From positions 184,982,716 through 185,046,715 of the forward strand of contig CP136066.1 of the NCBI GenBank assembly GCA_032622095.1: DNA of 64,000 nucleotides, read 5' to 3'. Below the pieces are notes generated by a model, which had not been told where the DNA came from, did no database searches, and saw nothing but the letters and a program-made list of their open reading frames with translations. This document shows positions 12,363 to 63,117 of the stretch, piece by piece. Made by a program: the position numbers and the translations under genes. Numbering within the stretch: the first letter of the stretch is position 1; each line of letters opens with the position of its first letter. The stretch is from Siphonodentalium dalli. Lineage: Eukaryota > Mollusca > Scaphopoda > Gadilida > Siphonodentaliidae.

Positions 12363-14546
12363 CTGTTCACGCTATTGTTGGATGTCAGGTGGCTGGGAGC
12401 TACTAATATGGTGTTCATTGATGAACACATTGATGGTATCCAAATATTAGCTTAACAGCTGAAATGAGTATGCCAGAAGACATACTTTAATTAATGGGTT
12501 GCTAAATTGAGTTTATTTTTCACCTGACACTTACATATTGCCAATTTCCAATATAAAGGTATGACAGCTCCGTAATCTGGTAATTACACAACTTTGGTGG
12601 GTATTCGTGAATTAATTGCGTACCATGTTTGTACTCATTTAAATACATCATACTGGAAACCAACATGACAAAAGTAGTATACTTGGGACAAAAGGGGCTT
12701 CCGAAAGGGTCGAAAATCAATTTGTTATTCTGGTGAATTGAATTTATTGTTTAACTCTTATTTGTCCTAAGTTCCAAAATGACATATTGTTTGGAACATG
12801 GGACAACCTTGCCCTAAAATAGAGTTAAAGTCTGAAATATCTTTCGCTTATTTAACAACATATACTTAGTTCTATTTTGCTCTAAGTGCAAAATTTCACA
12901 CCCTAGGTCTACATTTCTCAAAACTTTCTTGATATAATAGTCTTGTGCGGAGTGGTCTTGATAACAACGAATAGTTAAGACATTAAGGTATCTAGTGATG
13001 TGAAGTTTTTCACTGTAAACCATATATTTTAGTCGTGACAGCAATACAAACTTTGAAAATCGATTTACTCAAAATCTTAAAAAGTGCACTTAGGACAGAT
13101 TGGAACTTAGGTCGCGAATTCTAATTGATATCTGGTACACTTACAATACCCTGGTCCATGCATGCATATTGAAAAAGATGTACATGTATGGCAGAATAAT
13201 CACTCCAACAGCAGAGCAAGAATGCTACATGGGTGATGCGTCCTTGATACATGGTGAATCAACGCTCGCTGTGTTCAGCGTCGTTGCGGTTGCCATAAAA
13301 CAATAATACACGAATAAGCACGACAAATGTGGGACTATAATCCTTAAACCAAGAGCATAGTACCACAATAATATACATTTTATGGTGACTATCGTACATG
13401 CAGTTGATACACATTCTATAAGTATTAATTAACAACATAACACGAATGTCTGAATGTCATTTGTCCTTTGTATCCCCCCCCCATCGAATTTGACACTGTA
13501 ACGTTAATGTGTTCACACTTTGACGTAACAGTGGAATTCGTCTATATATTGCATTTATGGTCTTATCTGGAACTAATTGCAACACAGAGTTTCTTTGAAA
13601 GAATAAGTAAATTATAAACAACATACTAAACAAAAATATTGTCACTAAATTGGAAATCGGTTAATTTTGTAAATTTGCTTAAATATTAAATTTTCGGGGA
13701 TGTCATACATCAACAACACAATTTCACATGTTCTTCTATTTTTAAACCCATTGTAATTAGATTTTACCATCCTACTTTCAGGACAGAAAACTTTTACCAA
13801 TGTTTTCGACTGACTGATATGCATATACACTGTCAGCAAAGATTCGAAGGATTCGTACGAACTCGCCCTGGAAACAGAAGCCAGATTCTATATACGAGGT
13901 AGCAGTAGACGATTTCCGGCAATTTTGGCCAACGTGGGAGGGGTTACTGTACTTCTCATGGAGTGCTTCGTTCTATGCTATACCGTATAAACAATACAAT
14001 AATACACAACATAGTCGACGATTTGAACGCGCGCACTGGATAGTCGATGCAGTCCGACTGTAAAACGAAATAAAGGAGTCACGACTGACGAGCCCCACAA
14101 TCAGTCAACTACTCAGGATTTCAGACGTGCAAAACTGGCATGATTTCGTGCAGTTCATTGAGTAATCTCGCCACCCACAATGCCGAGACTGTATCCTTTA
14201 CTATTCTGAATAAAACAGTCCTCACATATAGAATCATAACCACATATGCTACATCAATTGCCTAGCATCAGTGTCAACTCATTTGAACTGTCATCTTCAA
14301 ATTACTACCTCAATACAAGAAAAACATCAATATATCACTAAATACAGTAATTGGTAGGTAGATACGCCGGAGAAATCCTTGTGTCTGAGACTGAATTTGG
14401 TCGATGAACTGTCACATCCCTTTCATAATTGATAATTCCATGAGTCTAACCGAGTACAATGGCAATTTAAGTATCGATTCCTTGTATACTCCTTCGTAGA
14501 TAAGCCTTCCTCTGTATATGAGCCTCAACTATTTGGTGAGAACGCA
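12363..14546. other. Left arm, gene-less stretch
   Basis: No recognisable coding sequence. The short ORFs here recur in the right arm only because the DNA is duplicated. The empty site for the right-arm hairpin insertion is at 14,330-14,337. Confidence 0.5.
14330..14337. other. Empty target site of hairpin element 2
   Basis: ATATATCA here (TGATATAT on the minus strand) is uninterrupted, whereas the homologous place in the right arm has TGATATAT, a 323-bp insertion and TGATAAAT. It is therefore the pre-insertion allele of the right-arm hairpin element. Confidence 0.85.
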
Positions 14547-14600: not shown

Positions 14601-14669
14601 GCCAATGCATTCTCTTATATATGCGAGTCGGCCATATGTCGCCTCGCATCTATAAGAGAATGCATTGGC
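14601..14669. repeat. 69-bp mobile hairpin, copy 3
   Basis: Left hairpin of foldback element B; one stem position differs (GCATCTATAAG against GCATATATAAG). Confidence 0.8.
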
Positions 14670-14900
14670 CTAACAATTTTTTAATATTTTAATATTTTTT
14701 TCTTGTATTCTTTAACAATTTTATAATTTCACCCATACACAGCCCCAGACAAACATGAGCAGACGACACTCTTCTATATGCTTCTATATATGTGTGGGGC
14801 TCTCTGCAGGGTAATGGATGTTTTTATTTTTTATTATTATTTTATGTCCTAAAAAATGTAAGAAACATTTATTTAAAAAAAAATTATAAAAAAATGTTAG

Positions 14901-16430: not shown

Positions 16431-16879
16431 TGTTTCTCGATAAATTTGAGATCGTTTCGTTTGGATCGAATTTTTGTTAGCGGCCATGTACAAATGCAGC
16501 TGCAGACCACAGGAAGAAAACGTACAACTGCCGTCGCTCTGAAAGGTTTATGGTACATCCTACGTACATTTTATAATCAAAACGAATAGATAGCAGTGCG
16601 TGCATTTTTAAATACATGTAGTTTCATGTTAAGATAACGCAATATACCTTTTCCGGACATTCAGTTTCAGATTCCAGAATTCCAATTTCAATGTGTGCAA
16701 CGTATTCGAAGTTTTTATGTTTTGTTACTTCAATGCGTCATTCTGGTACGAATGATGTTCACATAAAGGTAGTTCAGGTATTCATCGACCTATTTCGATA
16801 GCGGGAAATATTTATAAGCGAATATTATAGGTGTAATTGGAGTGAAAACTGTCATGTGTCTTTAACCCATCTTTAATAT
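16431..16879. other. Left arm spacer before LINE
   Basis: No identifiable gene; leads into the 5'-truncated LINE. Confidence 0.4.
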
Positions 16880-17992
16880 GGACATAAATCAATTGAAAAT
16901 TCCGAAATCCTTCTCCAAGGTTTTCATGAACCAATCAGAAACGATAGAAACGATGAAACAGCCGGCGGTGGTGTTAGTATATACATACGCGATTGCATCC
17001 CTTATAAACATCGCACCCACCTTATCGTACCAGGCTTAGAATCATTATGGGTTGAAATAAAGATTCATGGGAAAACGATTATTATCGGGTGTTCCTATAG
17101 ACCCCCTCAATCATTAGTTTCACTATGGGATAATATTGAGATAAATATAAAAAATGCTATTGACGATGTGAAGAATGTCCTGATATGCGGTGATTTTAAT
17201 GAAGATTATAAAGATGGTAGCAACGGCAAGATTAATGGTATATGCTCTGGTGTATCCCAATTGGTGACATCGTTTACAAATTTCACTGAAACGTCATCTA
17301 CTATCCTGGACCTGTTTCTTACAAATTGTTGTGAGTATATAAGTGGCACGGAGGTGATTGGCACTTTCTTTGAGGACCGCGTTAGGTACCATTCACCAGT
17401 TACGCTCGACATCGAGCTACCATTATCGAATCAATCGTCGACAAAAAGACATATTTGGTATTACGACAAAGCGGACTACGAAGCTATGAATAATACTTTT
17501 CTCAATTGGGATTTTAGAAGAATCTATTCAGATCAGAATTTGACTGCGATTACCGATCATTTAACTGAATTCATACAAAATGCCTGCACTAGATATATTC
17601 CAAGTAAAACTGTCACTATAAAAAAAAATGTCCCCCCTTGGCTTACATGTGGCATAAATAAACTAATGCGCAAACGTAATAGGCTACATAAAACAACGAA
17701 ACACACTAATTCCGCGACTTCTTGGGCAAAATTTCGCTCTGCGCGCAATCAATGTGTACACGCAGTGAGAAAAGCCAAGTCTGACTACGACATGAAAATT
17801 GACCATAGTTTAAAGGACATAAACTCTGATAAATCAACCTGGTGGAAAAATTTACAAAAAATTCTTTTCCAAAACAATCGTAAAGCCATACCCCCACTTC
17901 TGTCTGACAACTGTTACTTGGTTTCACCCTCTGATAAAGCGAACGCCTTGAATGATTACTTTTGTGAAATATCGAAAGTCGATGATTCCTAA
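16880..17992 (+). pseudogene. LINE ORF2 endonuclease part (CR1/Jockey group), left copy
   Basis: An open frame without a start codon encodes ENSEILLQGFHEP..., GGGVSIYIRD, LESLWVEIKI, IIIGCSYRPP and NVLICGDFN: the strands of the apurinic-type (EEP) endonuclease of non-LTR retrotransposons, including the GDFN motif. The distal motif, normally S-D-H-x-P before a beta strand, reads RYHSPV here, so a catalytic residue is lost. It continues into the linker rich in Lys/Arg (PPWLTCGINKLMRKRNRL). The frame is closed by TAA at 17,990; the reverse transcriptase resumes in the same frame 12 bases later. The N-terminus is truncated. The right-arm copy shares the RYH and TAA changes. Confidence 0.85.
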
Positions 17993-18004
17993 CACGTCAT
18001 AAAC

Positions 18005-18650
18005 GTGAACTATATTCCTCTGAATTCTAATTCTGATATAGCAATAAGTGAGATAGAAATTTCGACAACCGATGTTTTTGATGCTCTAAAAAATCTCAAA
18101 GTATCTAAAGCTTGCGGTCCAGACAAAATTAGCTCCCGCGTTTTAAAAAATTGTGCTTTAACTCTCTGTGAACCACTTGCTCATGTTTTCAATATTTTCT
18201 CAAAAAATAGTTATTATCCAAGTGAATGGAAAATAGCGAATATTACTCCAGTTTTCAAAAGCGGTGACCCTAGTATTGTATCAAACTATCGTCCTATATC
18301 TCTATTAAGTTGCTTATCCAAAACATATGAAAAGTGCCTTTATAAATATATTTGGTCTCACGTTAATGATCATAATCTAATCTCTGTCCATCAGTCTGGG
18401 TTTAAATTAGGAGATACTGCTGTTTATCAAATTACTGACGTGTATAATTATATTAGTATATTTTTTGACATCAGTAAGGCATTTGATAAGGTTTGGCACA
18501 AAGGTCTCCTCCACAAAATCTCGAGCATGGGTATCAATGGCAAGTTGTACAATATATTAGCTTCCTACATTAAATCTCGCCAACATAGAGTTTTGATTCC
18601 CACAAGGCTCAATATTAGGACCCCTTTTATTTCTTATTTATATCAATGAT
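18005..18650 (+). pseudogene. LINE ORF2 reverse transcriptase, N-terminal part, left copy
   Basis: Continues in frame with the endonuclease after one stop codon. Reverse transcriptase blocks: KACGPDKISSRVLKN, YYPSEWKIANITPVFKSGD, NYRPISLLSCLSKTYEKC, HQSGF and FFDISKAFDKVWH. Eleven residues before the last block (present in the right arm) are missing through a 33-bp deletion. Just after RQHRVLI a further deletion removes the sequence up to PQGSILGPLLF and shifts the frame. Non-functional. Confidence 0.85.
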
Positions 18651-19124
18651 ATAACAAAAAATATAGTGTGCAACATACGTCTTTTTGCTGATGACACGTC
18701 AATTTATCTATGTGTTGAGAACCCTACCCTCGCCGCAGAAATAAGTAATACAGATATTGACACTATTGTCAAATGGTCATGTACGTGGCTGGTTAAGTTC
18801 AACCCCATGAAGACCGAAGCATTGTTCGTATCAAGGGAAAACCTAAATATAGATCACCCACCCCTACTCATGGCTGGATCACTAATAACAGAAGTAAGCA
18901 ATCATAAACATCTCGGAGTTATATTTGACGGTACTGGTTCATGTGAAAGTCACATTTGTAGCATACTCGACAAGGCCTGGAAGAGAGTTAATCTTGTAAA
19001 GAGACACAAGTTCCGATTAAGCAGAAAGTCTTTAGAAACCGTATATGTCTCATTCATTCGCCCAATACTGGAATATGCATCCCCTGTTTGGGATAACATT
19101 CCGAAATATATGAGCGATCGCATT
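18651..19124 (+). pseudogene. LINE ORF2 reverse transcriptase, catalytic and thumb part
   Basis: In a new frame, this piece has NIRLFADDTSIY (the catalytic F/YADD box), WLVKFNPMKTEAL, HLGVIFD, AWKRVN and SFIRPILEYASPVWDNIP, all typical of CR1/Jockey-group elements. It stops abruptly at 19,124 where foldback element D begins. It lies inward of the left-arm breakpoint and has no counterpart in the right arm. Confidence 0.85.
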
Positions 19125-19304
19125 GACCTATGGTCGACTCGCATATATAAGAGAATGCATTGGCACAGGGCATAACTGTAGCCATCACAATGTGGTCAAT
19201 GATATCCATATGTGTATGGTGTTATTGAGACAGACCGCAGATATTTTAGGCTGTTGAAGCTTTATTTGGGCGTTTTTGGTCGTTTTGTTGGGTAAAGGGT
19301 TAAT
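19125..19304. mobile_element. Foldback element D (right half)
   Basis: Begins in the middle of the 69-bp hairpin (GACCTATGGTCGACTCGCAT...GCATTGGC to 19,164), then ACAGGGCATAACTGTAGCCA, and ends GTTGGGTAAAGGGTTAAT. The post-hairpin part matches, inverted, 9605-9725 of element A. It truncates the LINE, so either a half element inserted or a recombination between hairpins removed the left half and the LINE 3' end. Confidence 0.7.
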
Positions 19305-23067: not shown

Positions 23068-24185
23068 TTAGGAATCATCGACTTTTGATATTTCACAAAA
23101 GTAATCATTCAAGGCGTTCGCTTTATCAGAGGGTGAAACCAAGTAACAGTTGTCAGACAGAAGTGGGGGTATGGCTTTACGATTGTTTTGGAAAAGAATT
23201 TTTTGTAAATTTTTCCACCAGGTTGATTTATCAGAGTTTATGTCCTTTAAACTATGGTCAATTTTCATGTCGTAGTCAGACATGGCTTTTCTCACTGCAT
23301 GTACACATTGATTGCGCGCAGAGCGAAATTTTGCCCAAGAAGTCGCGGAATTAGTGTGTTTCGTTGTTTTATGTAGCCTATTACGTTTGCGCATTAGTTT
23401 ATTTATGCCACATGTAAGCCAAGGGGGGACATCTTTTTTTTATAGTGACAGTTTTACTTGGAATATATCTAGTGCAGGCATTTTGTATGAATTCAGTTAA
23501 ATGATCGGTAATCGCAGTCAAATTCTGATCTGAATAGATGCTTCTAAAATCCCAATTGAGAAAAGTATTATTCATAGCTTCGTAGTCCGCTTTGTCGTAA
23601 TACAAAATATGTCTTTTTGTCGACGATTGATTCGATAATGGTAGCTCGATGTCGAGCGTAACTGGTGAATGGTACCTAACGCGGTCCTCAAAGAAAGTGC
23701 CAATCACCTCCGTGCCACTTATATACTCACAACAATTTGTAAGAAACAGGTCCAGGATAGAAGATGACGTTTCAGTGAAATTTGTAAACGATGTCACCAA
23801 TTGGGATACACCAGAGCATATACCATTAATCTTGCCGTTGCTACCATCTTTATAATCTTCATTAAAATCACCGCATATCAGGACATTGTTCACATCGTCA
23901 ATAGCATTTTTTATATTTATCTCAATATTATCCCATAGTGAAACTAATGATTGAGGGGGTCTATAGGAACACCCGATAATAATCGTTTTCCCATGAATCT
24001 TTATTTCAACCCATAATGATTCTAAGCCTGGTACGATAAGGTCCGTGCGATGTTTATAAGGGATGCAATCGCGTATGTAGATACTAACACCACCGCCGGC
24101 TGTTTCACCGTTTCTATCGTTTCTGATTGGTTCATGAAAACCTTGGAGAAGGATTTCGGAATTTTCAATTGATTTATGTCCATAT
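23068..24185 (-). pseudogene. LINE endonuclease and linker, right copy
   Basis: Inverted duplicate of 16,880-17,992. It has NVLICGDFN and the same altered RYHSPV site, and ends with the same TAA (23,068-23,070). A 1-bp change near 23,435 shifts the frame between the endonuclease and the Lys/Arg-rich linker (KKRCPPLAYMW instead of KKNVPPWLTCG), so this copy is more decayed. Confidence 0.85.
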
Positions 24186-26158: not shown

Positions 26159-26389
26159 CTAACATTTTTTTATAATTTTTTTTTAAATAAATGTTTCTTA
26201 CATTTTTTAGGACATAACATAATAATAAATAAAAAAAACATCCATTACCCTGCAGAGAGCCCCACACATATATAGAAGCATATAGAAGAGTGTCGTCTGC
26301 TCATGTTTGTCTGGGGCTGTGTATGGGTGAAATTATAAAATTGTTAAAGAATACAAGAAAAAAATATTAAAATATTAAAAAATTGTTAG

Positions 26390-26458
26390 GCCAATGCATT
26401 CTCTTATAGATGCGAGGCGACATATGGCCGACTCGCATATATAAGAGAATGCATTGGC
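26390..26458. repeat. 69-bp mobile hairpin, copy 8
   Basis: Second hairpin of the right-arm element B; corresponds to 14,601-14,669 and shares its GCATC/GATGC variant, so the variant predates the duplication. Confidence 0.8.
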
Positions 26459-26728
26459 ACAGGGTAAAACAAATCCCGACTTACGGCTGGATTTGATATG
26501 GCGGGTCACATATGCGTTCTCACCAAATAGTTGAGGCTCATATACAGAGGAAGGCTTATCTACGAAGGAGTATACAAGGAATCGATACTTAAATTGCCAT
26601 TGTACTCGGTTAGACTCATGGAATTATCAATTATGAAAGGGATGTGACAGTTCATCGACCAAATTCAGTCTCAGACACAAGGATTTCTCCGGCGTATCTA
26701 CCTACCAATTACTGTATTTAGTGATATA

Positions 26729-26883
26729 TAGAGGATCTCACATGAGTTTCTATTTTATACGGAATTTATCAACCGAGTTCACTAAATTCGATTTGAGCCG
26801 AGGTTTACCGAGGCTCAAATAGAATTTAGAGGACGAGGTTGATAAATTACTTATAAAATAGGACGAGTGTGAGATACCTTTTA
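26729..26883. repeat. Long hairpin 2 (~155 bp)
   Basis: Left stem TAGAGGATCTCACATGAG... pairs with ...GGACGAGTGTGAGATACCTTTTA, with several mismatches. The apical part GAGCCGAGG-TTTA-CCGAGGCTC is a perfect small hairpin. Stem sequence is unrelated to hairpins 1 and 3. Confidence 0.85.
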
Positions 26884-27052
26884 TCACATGATCAAATAAA
26901 ACCGAAGCAACGCGAAATATTCATCGAAAACAACAATTATAAACTACAGCGATCGCAAGTTATTTGAAGAACGCCGTGACGTCATCGCACGCGCTGATAT
27001 TAAACGTGTCTATTACCGATAATTATGAAACTGCTTTTATGGCCAAATTATG
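26730..27052. mobile_element. Hairpin element 2 (323 bp) with 8-bp target duplication
   Basis: Inserted in the right arm only. Flanks are TGATATAT (26,722-26,729) and TGATAAAT (27,053-27,060); the left arm has a single uninterrupted TGATATAT. The element is a ~150-bp hairpin followed by a ~170-bp AT-rich tail holding GTGACGTCATCGC at about 26,979. TTTTATCACATG at the hairpin foot is the inverse of the terminus CATAATT/ATGTGATAAA. No ORF. Non-autonomous; superfamily uncertain, the 8-bp duplication being compatible with hAT or P-like transposases. Confidence 0.8.
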
Positions 27053-27060
27053 TGATAAAT

Positions 27061-29150
27061 TGATGTTTTTCTTGTATTGAGGTAGTAATTTGAAGATGAC
27101 AGTTCAAATGAGTTGACACTGATGCTTTGCAATTGATGTAGCATATGTGGTTATGATTCTATATGTGAGGACTGTTTTATTCAGAATAGTAAAGGATACA
27201 GTCTCGGCATTGTGGGTGGCGAGATTACTCAATGAACTGCACGAAATCATGCCAGTTTTGCACGTCTGAAATCCTGAGTAGTTGACTGATTGTGGGGCTC
27301 GTCAGTCGTGACTCCTTTATTTCGTTTTACAGCCGGACTGCATCGACTATCCAGTGCGCGCGTTCAAATCGTCGACTGTGTTGTGTATTATTGTATTGTT
27401 TATACGGTATAGCATAGAACGAAGCACTCCATGAGAAGACTGATGGAAGTGACCTGGCCTACTTTAGTTTCTTGTTTTATTCACAGTATGTCAACGTCAG
27501 TAGCACAAAGGAACTGAACATGCTTGATGGGCCCTGTGCCAAAGATAATGGCTCATCATATATTTGAAGTACAGTAACCCCTCCCACGTTGGCCAAAATT
27601 GCCGGAAATCGTCTACTGCTACCTCGTATATAGAATCTGGCTTCTGTTTCCAGGGCGAGTTCGTACGAATCCTTCGAATCTTTGCTGACAGTGTATATGC
27701 ATATCAGTCAGTCGAAAACATTGGTAAAAGTTTTCTGTCCTGAAAGTAGGATGGTAAAATCTAATTACAATGGGTTTAAAAATAGAAGAACATGTGAAAT
27801 TGTGTTGTTGATGTATGACATCCCCGAAAATTTAATATTTAAGCAAATTTACAAAATTAACCGATTTCCAATTTAGTGACAATATTTTTGTTTAGTATGT
27901 TGTTTATAATTTACTTATTCTTTCAAAGAAACTCTGTGTTGCAATTAGTTCCAGATAAGACCATAAATGCAATATATAGACGAATTCCACTGTTACGTCA
28001 AAGTGTGAACAAATTAACGTTACAGTGTCAAATTCGATGGGGGGGGGATACAAAGGACAAATGACATTCAGACATTCGTGTTATGTTGTTAATTAATACT
28101 TATAGAATGTGTATCAACTGCATGTACGATAGTCACCATAAAATGTATATTATTGTGGTACTATGCTCTTGGTTTAAGGATTATAGTGCCACATTTGTCG
28201 TGCTTATTCGTGTATTATTGTTTTATGGCAACCGCAACGACGCTGAACACAGCGAGCGTTGATTCACCATGTATCAAGGACGCATCACCCATGTAGCATT
28301 CTTGCTCTGCTGTTGGAGTGATTATTCTGCCATACATGTACATCTTTTTCAATATGCATGCATGGACCAGGGTATTGTAAGTGTACCAGATATCAATTAG
28401 AATTCGCGACCTAAGTTCCAATCTGTCCTAAGTGTACTTTTTAAGATTTTGAGTAAATCGATTTTCAAAGTTTGTATTGCTGTCACGACTAAAATATATG
28501 GTTTACAGTGAAAAACTTCACATCACTAGATACCTTAATGTCTTAACTATTCGTTGTTATCAAGACCACTCAGCACAAGACTATTATATCAAGAAAGTTT
28601 TGAGAAATGTAGACCTAGGGTGTGAAATTTTGCACTTAGAGCAAAATAGAACTAAGTATATGTTGTTAAATAAGCGAAAGATATTTCAGACTTTAACTCT
28701 ATTTTAGGGCAAGGTTGTCCCATGTTCCAAACAATATGTCATTTTGGAACTTAGGACAAATAAGAGTTAAACAATAAATTTAATTCACCATAATAACAAA
28801 TTGATTTTCGACCCTTTCGGAAGCCCCTTTTATCCCAAGTATACTACTTTTGTCATGTTGGTTTCCAGTATGATGTATTTAAATGAGTACAAACATGGTA
28901 CGCAATTAATTCACGAATACCCACCAAAGTTGTGTAATTACCAGATTACGGAGCTGTCATACCTTCATATTGGAAATTGGCAATATGTAAGTGTCAGGTG
29001 AAAAATAAACTCAATTTAGCAACCCATTAATTAAAGTATGTCTTCTGGCATACTCATTTCAGCTGTTAAGCTAATATTTGGATACCATCAATGTGTTCAT
29101 CAATGAACACCATATTAGTAGCTCCCAGCCACCTGACATCCAACAATAGC
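27061..29150. other. Right arm, gene-less stretch
   Basis: Inverted counterpart of the left arm. It includes 131 bp (27,439-27,569) absent from the left arm, bounded by GAAG on both sides, which looks like a microhomology deletion in the left arm. Confidence 0.5.
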
Positions 29151-61185: not shown

Positions 61186-63012
61186 TCACACATTATCGAA
61201 ACGTCGACTTTGGATAATAAACAGTTGTACAGCTTCAAATATTATAGAATTTGTTTCATCGGACATCTCATTAGACCCATATAATAGGACATCAATGTTC
61301 ACATCTGCTGGCGAAAATGGCAGAGCGGCTATCATATCAGCTCTAATTTGACTATATTGGGGGACATTGCAAAAGAAAGTGGTACGCGGATTCAACTACA
61401 AATTCTCAACAAGAGCAAAATGGGGAATCTCTTACGTAATTTACAACAAGATCTTTGTTCAGATGGCTGCACCCCAGTCTCATTCTTGTGTGATATACTT
61501 GGCCTATACGAGAGTGACTATGATAATAAAACATAGCTAAATTAGTATGACCGACCTTCAGAAGACGCTTGAATTCTTCCACGGTTGATGATGCTTTTAT
61601 TGAGACAGGTATATTATTCCATGCGCGTATTGCTGACGGTAAGAACGTATCCATATATTTATTTATGTTACTATATGGAGGGTGAATACTTACGCGTCTG
61701 TGATTATATCCAGAAGATGTCGAATCGGGTGGGATCATGGTTGAAAGATAAGATGGGGCCTGATTTCTATGCATCTTGTAAAATAATATCATTTGTTGAG
61801 TATGTCTCCTGGATGAAAGGGTTTCCCAACCAGTTTCGAATAATAAGTTTTTATCACTGACGCTTCTGGTAGCCCCAGTAACAATCCTCGCCATCTCATA
61901 TTGAATATCTTCAATTTTGTCACTCTTATAAATTGGTATATTATTCCAAACAGGTGACGCATATTCGAGTATCGGCCTTACATATGAGAAATAGGATTTT
62001 TCAAGTGTTGTCCTGCTCAGTCGGAATTTATGTCTCCGAATATGATTTACTCTTTTCCAGGCCTTTTCGGTTATCGTTTGTATATGAGTTTCCCAGGATC
62101 CGTTGTTATCGAAAGAGACACCTAGATGTTTATGAGAACTTACCTCTGTAACTTGCGATGCCGCCATAATTAATGGTGGGTGAACAATAGCAGAATTCAT
62201 CCTTGATACTATTAACGCTTCCGTTTTTAAAGGATTAAATTTTACTAACAACATTTTTGACCAGTTCACAATAGTTTGAATGTCATTGTTCATGATTTCT
62301 GCAGCTAACGTTGGATTTTCAACATATAAATATATTGAAGTATCGTCTGCAAAAAGTCGTATATTACATATAATATTTTCAGTTATATCATTAGTGTATA
62401 CAAGAAATAGGAGTGGACCTAAGATATATCCCTGTGGTACGCCTGCTGAAACATCATGCCAATCGGTGCTAGCATTGTCAATTAGGACTCTCTGTTGTCT
62501 GGATTGTAAATATGATTTAATCAAGTTATATGCCTTGCCATTGAAACCCATTTTCGAGAGTTTATGTAGAAGCCCCTTATGCCACACTTTATCAAAAGCC
62601 TTACTGATGTCACAAAAGATACAACGCACATCCTTACCTTCATCGAGTGATCTGCTAATATAATCATATACATCAACAAGTTGGTATACGGCAGAATCAC
62701 ATTTAGTGAACCCAGATTGGTAAATAGAAAGCAAATTGCGTTTGTCAAGATACGACGAGAGGTATTTATATATGCACTTTTCGTATGTTTTTGATACGCA
62801 GCTCAGTAGTGAAATTGGGCGGTAGTTAGATATGACACTAGGATCACCACTCTTGAAGACAGGGGTTACATTAGATCGCTTCCACTCTGATGGATAATAA
62901 CCGTCATCGGTAAATTTGTTGAAGAAATATGCAAGAGGTTCACATAGGGAGGACGCACATACTTTTAATACACGGGGGCTAATATTATCAGGGCCACTCG
63001 CTTTGGACACTT
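61186..63012 (-). pseudogene. CR1/Jockey-group LINE ORF2, 5'-truncated but RT intact
   Basis: A single 534-codon frame (63,010-61,406) holds the whole reverse transcriptase from KASGPDNISPRVLK through YYPSEWKRSNVTPVFKSGD, NYRPISLLSC, IFCDISKAFDKVWHK, GVPQGYILGPLLFLVYTND, the catalytic LFADDTSIY, and LVKFNPLKTEA to the thumb and WNNIPVSIKASSTVEEFKRL. The C-terminal zinc-like tail (CSC-EFVVESAYHFLLQCP...QYSQIRADM) is broken by a TGA after CSC (61,406-61,408) and by one extra C in the run near 61,360; it then reads on to 61,186. The endonuclease is absent: the element stops at 63,012 against unrelated DNA. Same family as the LINE in the inverted duplication. Confidence 0.9.
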
Positions 63013-63117
63013 TCTGTTAAACAGAAATCATGACCGACATGATTCAGAGCGAGATTTCAAACCCTGTGTACCCTTCAGCACATTTTCAGAACCTGGGTAC
63101 CATTCAACACATTTTTT
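63012..63117. repeat. ~105-bp direct repeat, copy 1
   Basis: CTGTTAAACAGAAATCATGA...CCCTTCAGCACATTTTCAGAACCTGGGTACCATTCAACACATTT, beginning exactly where the LINE ends. Copy 2 is at 63,443-63,545. Confidence 0.85.

Follow-up and report, generated by a model that had tools for sequence, protein, structure and literature searches.

Animal Cryptons, and CryptonA in particular, are the described elements closest to the one analysed here. As in the lineage reported below, CryptonA elements encode a DUF3504 tyrosine recombinase, lack classical terminal repeats, and have short non-autonomous derivatives that outnumber full copies, as far as the accessible text of the 2011 survey by Kojima and Jurka goes (PMC3212892). 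In that text, the survey reports no terminal repeats in animal Cryptons, and its main text contains neither "hairpin" nor "palindrom"; since then, the ends of these elements and the chemistry of their insertion had been unclear. The same text lists KCTD1, QRICH1, and ZMYM2-4 among the vertebrate genes that contain DUF3504 domains (PMC3212892). A literature search by title and beginning of abstract found no paper on Crypton terminal hairpins; most subscription journals and Repbase lie outside that search, and earlier knowledge is possible.

Other systems resemble this lineage in part, based on the accessible text of the respective papers. Integron attC sites are imperfect palindromes used by a tyrosine recombinase with a one-sided exchange outcome (PMC8946536, PMC2727003); in the attI x attC reaction, a single strand is exchanged, leaving a product that replication resolves (PMC8946536). 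DIRS1-like retrotransposons have a tyrosine recombinase and an internal copy of the end-to-end junction, cause no target duplication, and carry internal complementary regions that align the element ends in a proposed model (PMC3266345). Helentrons and their non-autonomous derivatives (HINEs) combine a subterminal inverted motif with a 3' palindrome and leave the target unchanged (PMC4067079).

The W insertion and its empty site

The window, i.e., the whole 64,000-nucleotide stretch of DNA analysed, contains an inverted duplication with arms that are 98.8% identical over 4131 bp and 99.2% identical over 2407 bp. Alignment of the two arms, the left one reversed, confirmed the proposal of a sequence-only reading that the right arm carries an insertion absent from the left. 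This element, which we named W, measures 331 bp rather than the proposed 323 bp. The filled locus reads AGTGATATA|TAGAGG...GATAAA|TTGATG, and the empty left arm reads AGTGATATATTGATG. The sites join exactly, and the flank matches overlap by only 2 bp, in contrast to the 4-6 bp terminal direct repeats of fungal-type Cryptons. Positions at the locus are as follows; in recombinase orientation, which for W is the minus strand, the element reads TTTATCACAT...GATCCTCTA.

26729-27059, plus strand: the whole non-autonomous element W, 331 bp, from the filled/empty difference and termini constant in 40 copies
26721-26728, plus strand: host target half-site GTGATATA with the core ATATA at 26724-26728, which the empty site also contains; in the fold, 26721-26726 are paired with 26882-26887
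26729-26734, plus strand: element 6-mer TAGAGG at the hairpin end, exact in 91 and with a single-base variant in 9 of the 100 genome matches listed first, out of 1394
27050-27059, plus strand: right terminus ATGTGATAAA, which is the 5' end TTTATCACAT in recombinase orientation, from the constancy of GTGATAAA in 40 copies
27060-27066, plus strand: host 6-mer TTGATG followed by T at +7, the far side of the target
14330-14331, minus strand: empty site in the left arm, with the insertion point between the two bases, from the arm comparison

The sequence-only reading had also proposed an 8-bp target duplication. Duplications of this length are made by hAT, P, and Merlin transposons, and an imperfect TGATATAT/TGATAAAT repeat at the ends of W is what a cut-and-paste DNA transposon of this kind would appear to leave. 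The exact join without duplication refutes that interpretation at this locus: TGATATA to the left of W is host sequence, while TGATAAA on the right is W's own end. Moreover, GATAAA is constant among W copies although their flanks differ. Of the eight bases of the right terminus GTGATAAA, seven are constant in all 40 copies and the first in 39 of them, and the host sequence beyond it varies; on the left, ATATA belongs to the host target. Overall, we regard a cut-and-paste transposon as practically discounted. W is likely to have inserted after the duplication, as that reading had it, but the order of events is unproven because a tyrosine recombinase could in principle have removed W precisely from the other arm.

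W consists of a hairpin of ~150 bp followed by a tail of 180 bp (~170 bp in the sequence-only reading). When the W stretch was folded as DNA, its stability corresponded to z = -8.06, and none of 100 shuffled sequences was equally stable. The parts of the fold are as follows.

26730-26879, plus strand: terminal hairpin, ~150 bp
26774-26777, plus strand: CGAG (CTCG on the minus strand), which in the folded strand faces 26834-26837 in a CTCG/CTCG 2x2 internal loop (DNA fold)
26834-26837, plus strand: CGAG, partner of 26774-26777 (DNA fold)
26799-26802, plus strand: CGAG close to the apex, facing 26809-26812 in a second CTCG/CTCG loop (DNA fold)
26809-26812, plus strand: CGAG, partner of 26799-26802 (DNA fold)
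26869-26889, plus strand: inner foot GTGAGATACCTTTTATCACAT, 21 nt, a near-copy of the 23-nt end-to-end junction GTGAGATCCTCTA^TTTATCACAT in minus-strand reading
26880-27059, plus strand: tail between TTTATCACAT and ATGTGATAAA; older relatives have a comparable hairpin-plus-tail layout

The odd end structure that had been noticed from the letters alone was borne out: TTTATCACAT at the hairpin foot (26880-26889) is the inverse of the right terminus ATGTGATAAA (27050-27059). The inner foot as a whole is an inverted near-copy of the junction of W's two ends, i.e., the outer foot plus the 5' end, as they would meet in a circle. It was exact in 36 of 39 fetched W copies, and the remaining three lacked the exact inner motif.

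A separate hairpin of ~70 bp, GCCAATGCATTC...GAATGCATTGGC, is located at 26389-26458 and, inverted, at 14601-14670. It lacks Crypton ends, and similar ~70-bp hairpins recur at the fetched loci L040, L042, L043, and L046. By eye, frames at 16877-19175, 23068-24184, and 61406-63016 of the window resemble endonuclease and reverse transcriptase of non-LTR retrotransposons; the first two are mostly contained in the duplication arms.

Copies of W and the insertion target

The genome searched (2.23 Gb in 9 contigs) contains over a thousand copies of W. The 40 copies scored, which are the best of 524 candidates, are all nearly full length and span both hairpin and tail, in agreement with the earlier proposal that the two form one mobile unit. 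Identity of the other 39 to the window copy is 98.4-99.7%, a range biased upward by the use of best matches. To the same effect, a search for the exact 25-base tail start without C at -1 and without C at -3 found a single place in 2.2 Gb, which reads ACTTTTTATC and resembles the hairpin foot of a relative (L066); the search does not count tail starts overall and would miss those with C at -3. A pattern for alternative tails on the W hairpin foot had a single match, at C9:84136102, where a W copy has an altered tail end. L066 (C7:42886500-42887300) is a palindromic arrangement of tail, hairpin, and inverted tail, 93% self-complementary over 324 bp.

Two of the 40 copies are duplicates as judged by their flanks, leaving 38 distinct loci. 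ATATA precedes W at 33 of these 38, and the base at +7 after the right end is T at 35 (background 0.33, p = 3e-14). Across the genome, exact matches to the 19-base right end number 2366, of which 2226 (94.1%) continue with N6-T and 140 with N6 and another base; duplicated copies are part of these counts, e.g., the 13 places on C1 (741 to 915 kb) that share one 6-mer. We conclude that the insertion target of W is A-N6^TATAT in recombinase orientation. The thirteen right ends with the identical next 6-mer (C1:741083-914542) are mostly 11-15 kb apart with one 40-kb gap, as if in a large tandem array.

Among the first 100 listed places without T, 24 have TAGAGGA after the right end (by eye), and 16 of these 24 were confirmed as head-to-tail joints of W. 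Such a joint is also present in the flank of 3 of 39 fetched copies (L010, L014, and L022), and the joints fall at the exact termini. Reversed-pattern controls had 0 matches for the joint, left-end, and right-end patterns, and 10 vs 100 in another pattern search. One pattern search was not enriched, with 138 matches vs 978 for its reversed control, and each copy used from it was read individually. The stretches L068-L077, with the left-end motif inside longer repeats, recognised by shared flanks, were excluded from the element counts. A 14-bp motif is shared with a CACGGT repeat (L045-L047), which was set aside as it has no hairpin foot.

An autonomous relative and other hairpin-bearing families

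We identified an autonomous relative of W in the same genome by joining and reversing two fetched stretches (L116 and L119). It is 2243 bp long, extends from TTTATCACAT to GATCCTCTA, and bears in L116 the W-type end ATGTGATAAAAAGGATCTC...GATCCTCTA. Its 563-aa open frame matches DUF3504 (PF12012, E 9e-27) and Phage_integrase (PF00589, E 5.5e-10), and QRICH1 is the best match among solved structures (E 8e-5). The remaining frames of at least 90 codons are two antisense ones (126 and 90); no reverse transcriptase frame was present among the frames and Pfam matches checked, which sets the element apart from DIRS1-like retrotransposons. W and the relative are alike in end motifs, terminal hairpin layout, and target, and they match at both ends: the hairpin ends share 82% identity over 166 bp, the opposite ends 77% over 90 bp. 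In both, the inner junction copy is 2 nt shorter than the junction (in the relative, 21 vs 19 nt). The relative also joins exactly and without duplication relative to its empty site, AACAAAA^TATATTAAATT, found in two neighbouring paralogous repeats.

Two sister copies of the relative (L120/L121 and L122) are 99.1-99.9% identical over the 819-1219 bp compared; they carry shorter open frames (351 and 230 aa), and one intact copy is shown. For a third copy, the 5' end was absent at the expected position (L132). In L121, the end of the sister copy directly abuts a complete W copy, head to tail (97%). With ends 77-82% alike, the relative is not the parent of W, and a closer one may exist. We consider the identity of W as a non-autonomous element of the animal Crypton type strongly supported, and W is very probably CryptonA-like and moved in trans by a DUF3504 tyrosine recombinase, with CryptonA distinguished from other Crypton groups by domains rather than by a tree. 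Exact empty sites without target duplication, for W as for the relative, are shared with CryptonA, while the long terminal hairpin, the internal junction copy, and the target rule distinguish the W lineage from CryptonA as presented in the accessible text of PMC3212892.

The geometry of W, with subterminal inverted repeats, a 3' palindrome, and no target duplication, is also that of non-autonomous Helentron/Helitron2-like (HINE) rolling-circle elements, according to the accessible text of PMC4067079 and PMC5148889, and PF14214 matches are numerous in the genome, some of them within long open frames. Three Helentron-like loci (L088-L093) with long open frames of 2552-2864 aa were fetched; among these, the Helentron loci compared, W-type ends were absent, whereas an element encoding a tyrosine recombinase carries them. 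The W flank also differs from the TT target reported for Helentrons, the enzyme is a different one, and the hairpin arms of ~70 bp compare with palindromes of 5-10 bp in mite HINEs, as far as PMC4067079 is accessible. We therefore disfavour the HINE identity, which we consider very improbable. One motif (L057, L040) has a Helitron frame in its neighbourhood, but at a distance of several kb, and this was judged a coincidence. Replitrons and IS200/IS605-like single-strand transposition were considered for the one-sided target and dropped once the tyrosine-recombinase relative appeared.

Returning to the Crypton-type reading, we searched the genome with Phage_integrase (150 scored of 1445 candidates). 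Of 17 further recombinase loci examined, 14 carry a hairpin on the downstream side of the ORF: all of the first five fetched and, with a long hairpin, nine of twelve more 3.2-kb downstream stretches (L107, L109, L110, L111, L113, L115, L116, L117, and L118; shortened in L110). No long hairpin was seen in the other three stretches (L108, L112, and L114). In families 646, 551, 644, and 601, the hairpin is at the end of the element, as judged by comparing copies (646 by eye). DUF3504 was matched also in families 659, 551, and 644, and families 646 and 601 matched PF00589 only. R, HxxR, GH, and Y are common to six aligned recombinases (by eye), which have pairwise identities of 18-58%. The inner junction copy is apparently identical to the junction in family 646 and about one base off in families 551 and 659 (by eye); the 3' end of a second family 659 copy failed to align (L124).

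Fifteen hairpins were folded as DNA: ten adjoining recombinase matches (nine families, one of them twice), W, one D, two P, and one Q. In this set, which is limited to element hairpins, 22 of 28 symmetric 2x2 internal loops are CTCG facing CTCG. Thirteen of the 15 hairpins have such loops, nine of them two and four of them one, while family 601 and Q (L086) have none; the L117 and L143 hairpins contain four CTCG each. Because the stems differ in sequence between families, the CTCG/CTCG loops look selected. The family 601 recombinase is also the one with 18-23% protein identity to the others. In both family 601 copies seen (L096, L126, L127), GTTCAT lies six bases before the 5' end, a target side unlike that of other families. 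By eye, A is found at -7 in three of five copies of family 646, and a copy of this family lies within a tandem repeat of ~22 bp (L105, L106).

Older relatives of W (L041-L055) are mostly 77-90% alike mutually in BLAST, with one pair at 97%. These and the P family (L082, L083, L085) have, where readable, the order hairpin, inner motif, tail. In the P family, the inner motif and the right end depart from W together (TTTATTACAT, with ATGTAATAAA in L082 and L085 and ATGTAACAAA in L083), and the right ends are AATAAA in L082 and L085 and AACAAA in L083. The flank base at -6 tracks the family, being G in 17 of the 33 ATATA-flanked W copies and A in 9 of 17 P copies (Fisher p 0.001-0.002), and equals the corresponding base of the family's own right end. 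The 17 P flanks were selected by a pattern that fixes ATATA, so that only positions from -6 outward are informative, and related copies may weaken the test; dropping one of two P copies that look related (L078 and L140) gives 9/16 and p = 0.0007 for A.

Polarity of insertion and the proposed mechanism

In the listed W copies, the host 6-mer and the element 6-mer each keep to their own side. Among the first 100 left ends listed (1394 matches in all), none has swapped 6-mers, and among the first 100 listed of the 2226 right-end places with T at +7, none reads TAGAGG before the T. Families 551, 601, and 644 (two copies each) and 646 (five) likewise have constant element sequence at the hairpin end, while the host sequence before the 5' end differs (by eye). 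Exchange of one strand would explain why the listed copies have the host 6-mer on one side and TAGAGG on the other, and this is also the arrangement that attI x attC exchange would leave, based on the accessible text of PMC8946536.

We propose that the recombinase of the CryptonA-like relative would mobilise W by binding two similar half-sites, TTTATCAC in the element and TATATC in the host, separated by a 6-bp spacer. W would move as a circle in which the inner junction copy aligns the ends, as proposed for the DIRS internal complementary regions. The active form would be a folded single strand; one strand would be exchanged, and replication would complete the insertion, as for integron attC cassettes. 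Movement of W is read here from sequence, and both the circle and the recombinase activity are putative. The hairpin is likely part of the recombination site. A one-strand mechanism with folded DNA is plausible but unproven, and for this attC-like scheme as a whole, with replication finishing the insertion, we see slightly less than an even chance. More tentatively, and at rather under even, animal-type Cryptons in general might transpose as folded single-stranded DNA, with the recombination site presented by the terminal hairpin, its CTCG/CTCG loops, and the junction copy, with one-strand exchange at A-N6^TATAT, and with completion by replication; this would then be a eukaryotic counterpart of the attC reaction.

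The likeness to attC has limits. Integrons are bacterial and come with an integron platform, whereas W is known from sequence alone, and an unpaired central spacer as described for attC in the accessible text of PMC8946536 and PMC2727003 is not clearly seen. In the W fold, host GTGATA (26721-26726) pairs with the inner motif (26882-26887), and around the crossover only TAT and one A are unpaired. In the minimum-energy fold, most of the W 6-mer (26730-26734) pairs with the foot, and the likeness to the unpaired attC spacer is weakened because of this pairing.

This pairing would fit a scheme with the same Crypton identity in which a double-stranded circle undergoes two-strand exchange, the conventional reaction of tyrosine recombinases, while the hairpin is architectural or a replication signal and the one-sided 6-mer results from repair bias; uniform polarity could indeed also arise from biased repair. 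Target bases conserved on both sides of the 6-bp gap, and the GTTCAT-N6 before the 5' end in both sequenced copies of family 601, are in line with it. Yet, two-strand exchange across a 6-bp spacer should often leave host and element 6-mers swapped after replication, in about half of the copies if heteroduplex is replicated, as opposed to none of the 100 listed at either end. A double-stranded circle would also hold two inverted junction copies and could give a tail-flipped isomer, of which one of the two expected junctions, searched genome-wide at <=1 mismatch, had 0 matches. We regard two-strand exchange as possible though on balance doubtful.

The ends, the target rule, and the recurrent hairpin of animal-type Cryptons can now be read from many young copies, and intact recombinase frames are at hand. 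The one-sided outcome of insertion leads to a concrete prediction, namely that single-strand recombination occurs in a eukaryote. Given the DUF3504 domains in vertebrate genes named in the accessible text of PMC3212892, the DNA shape that DUF3504 proteins may once have read would be of wider interest.
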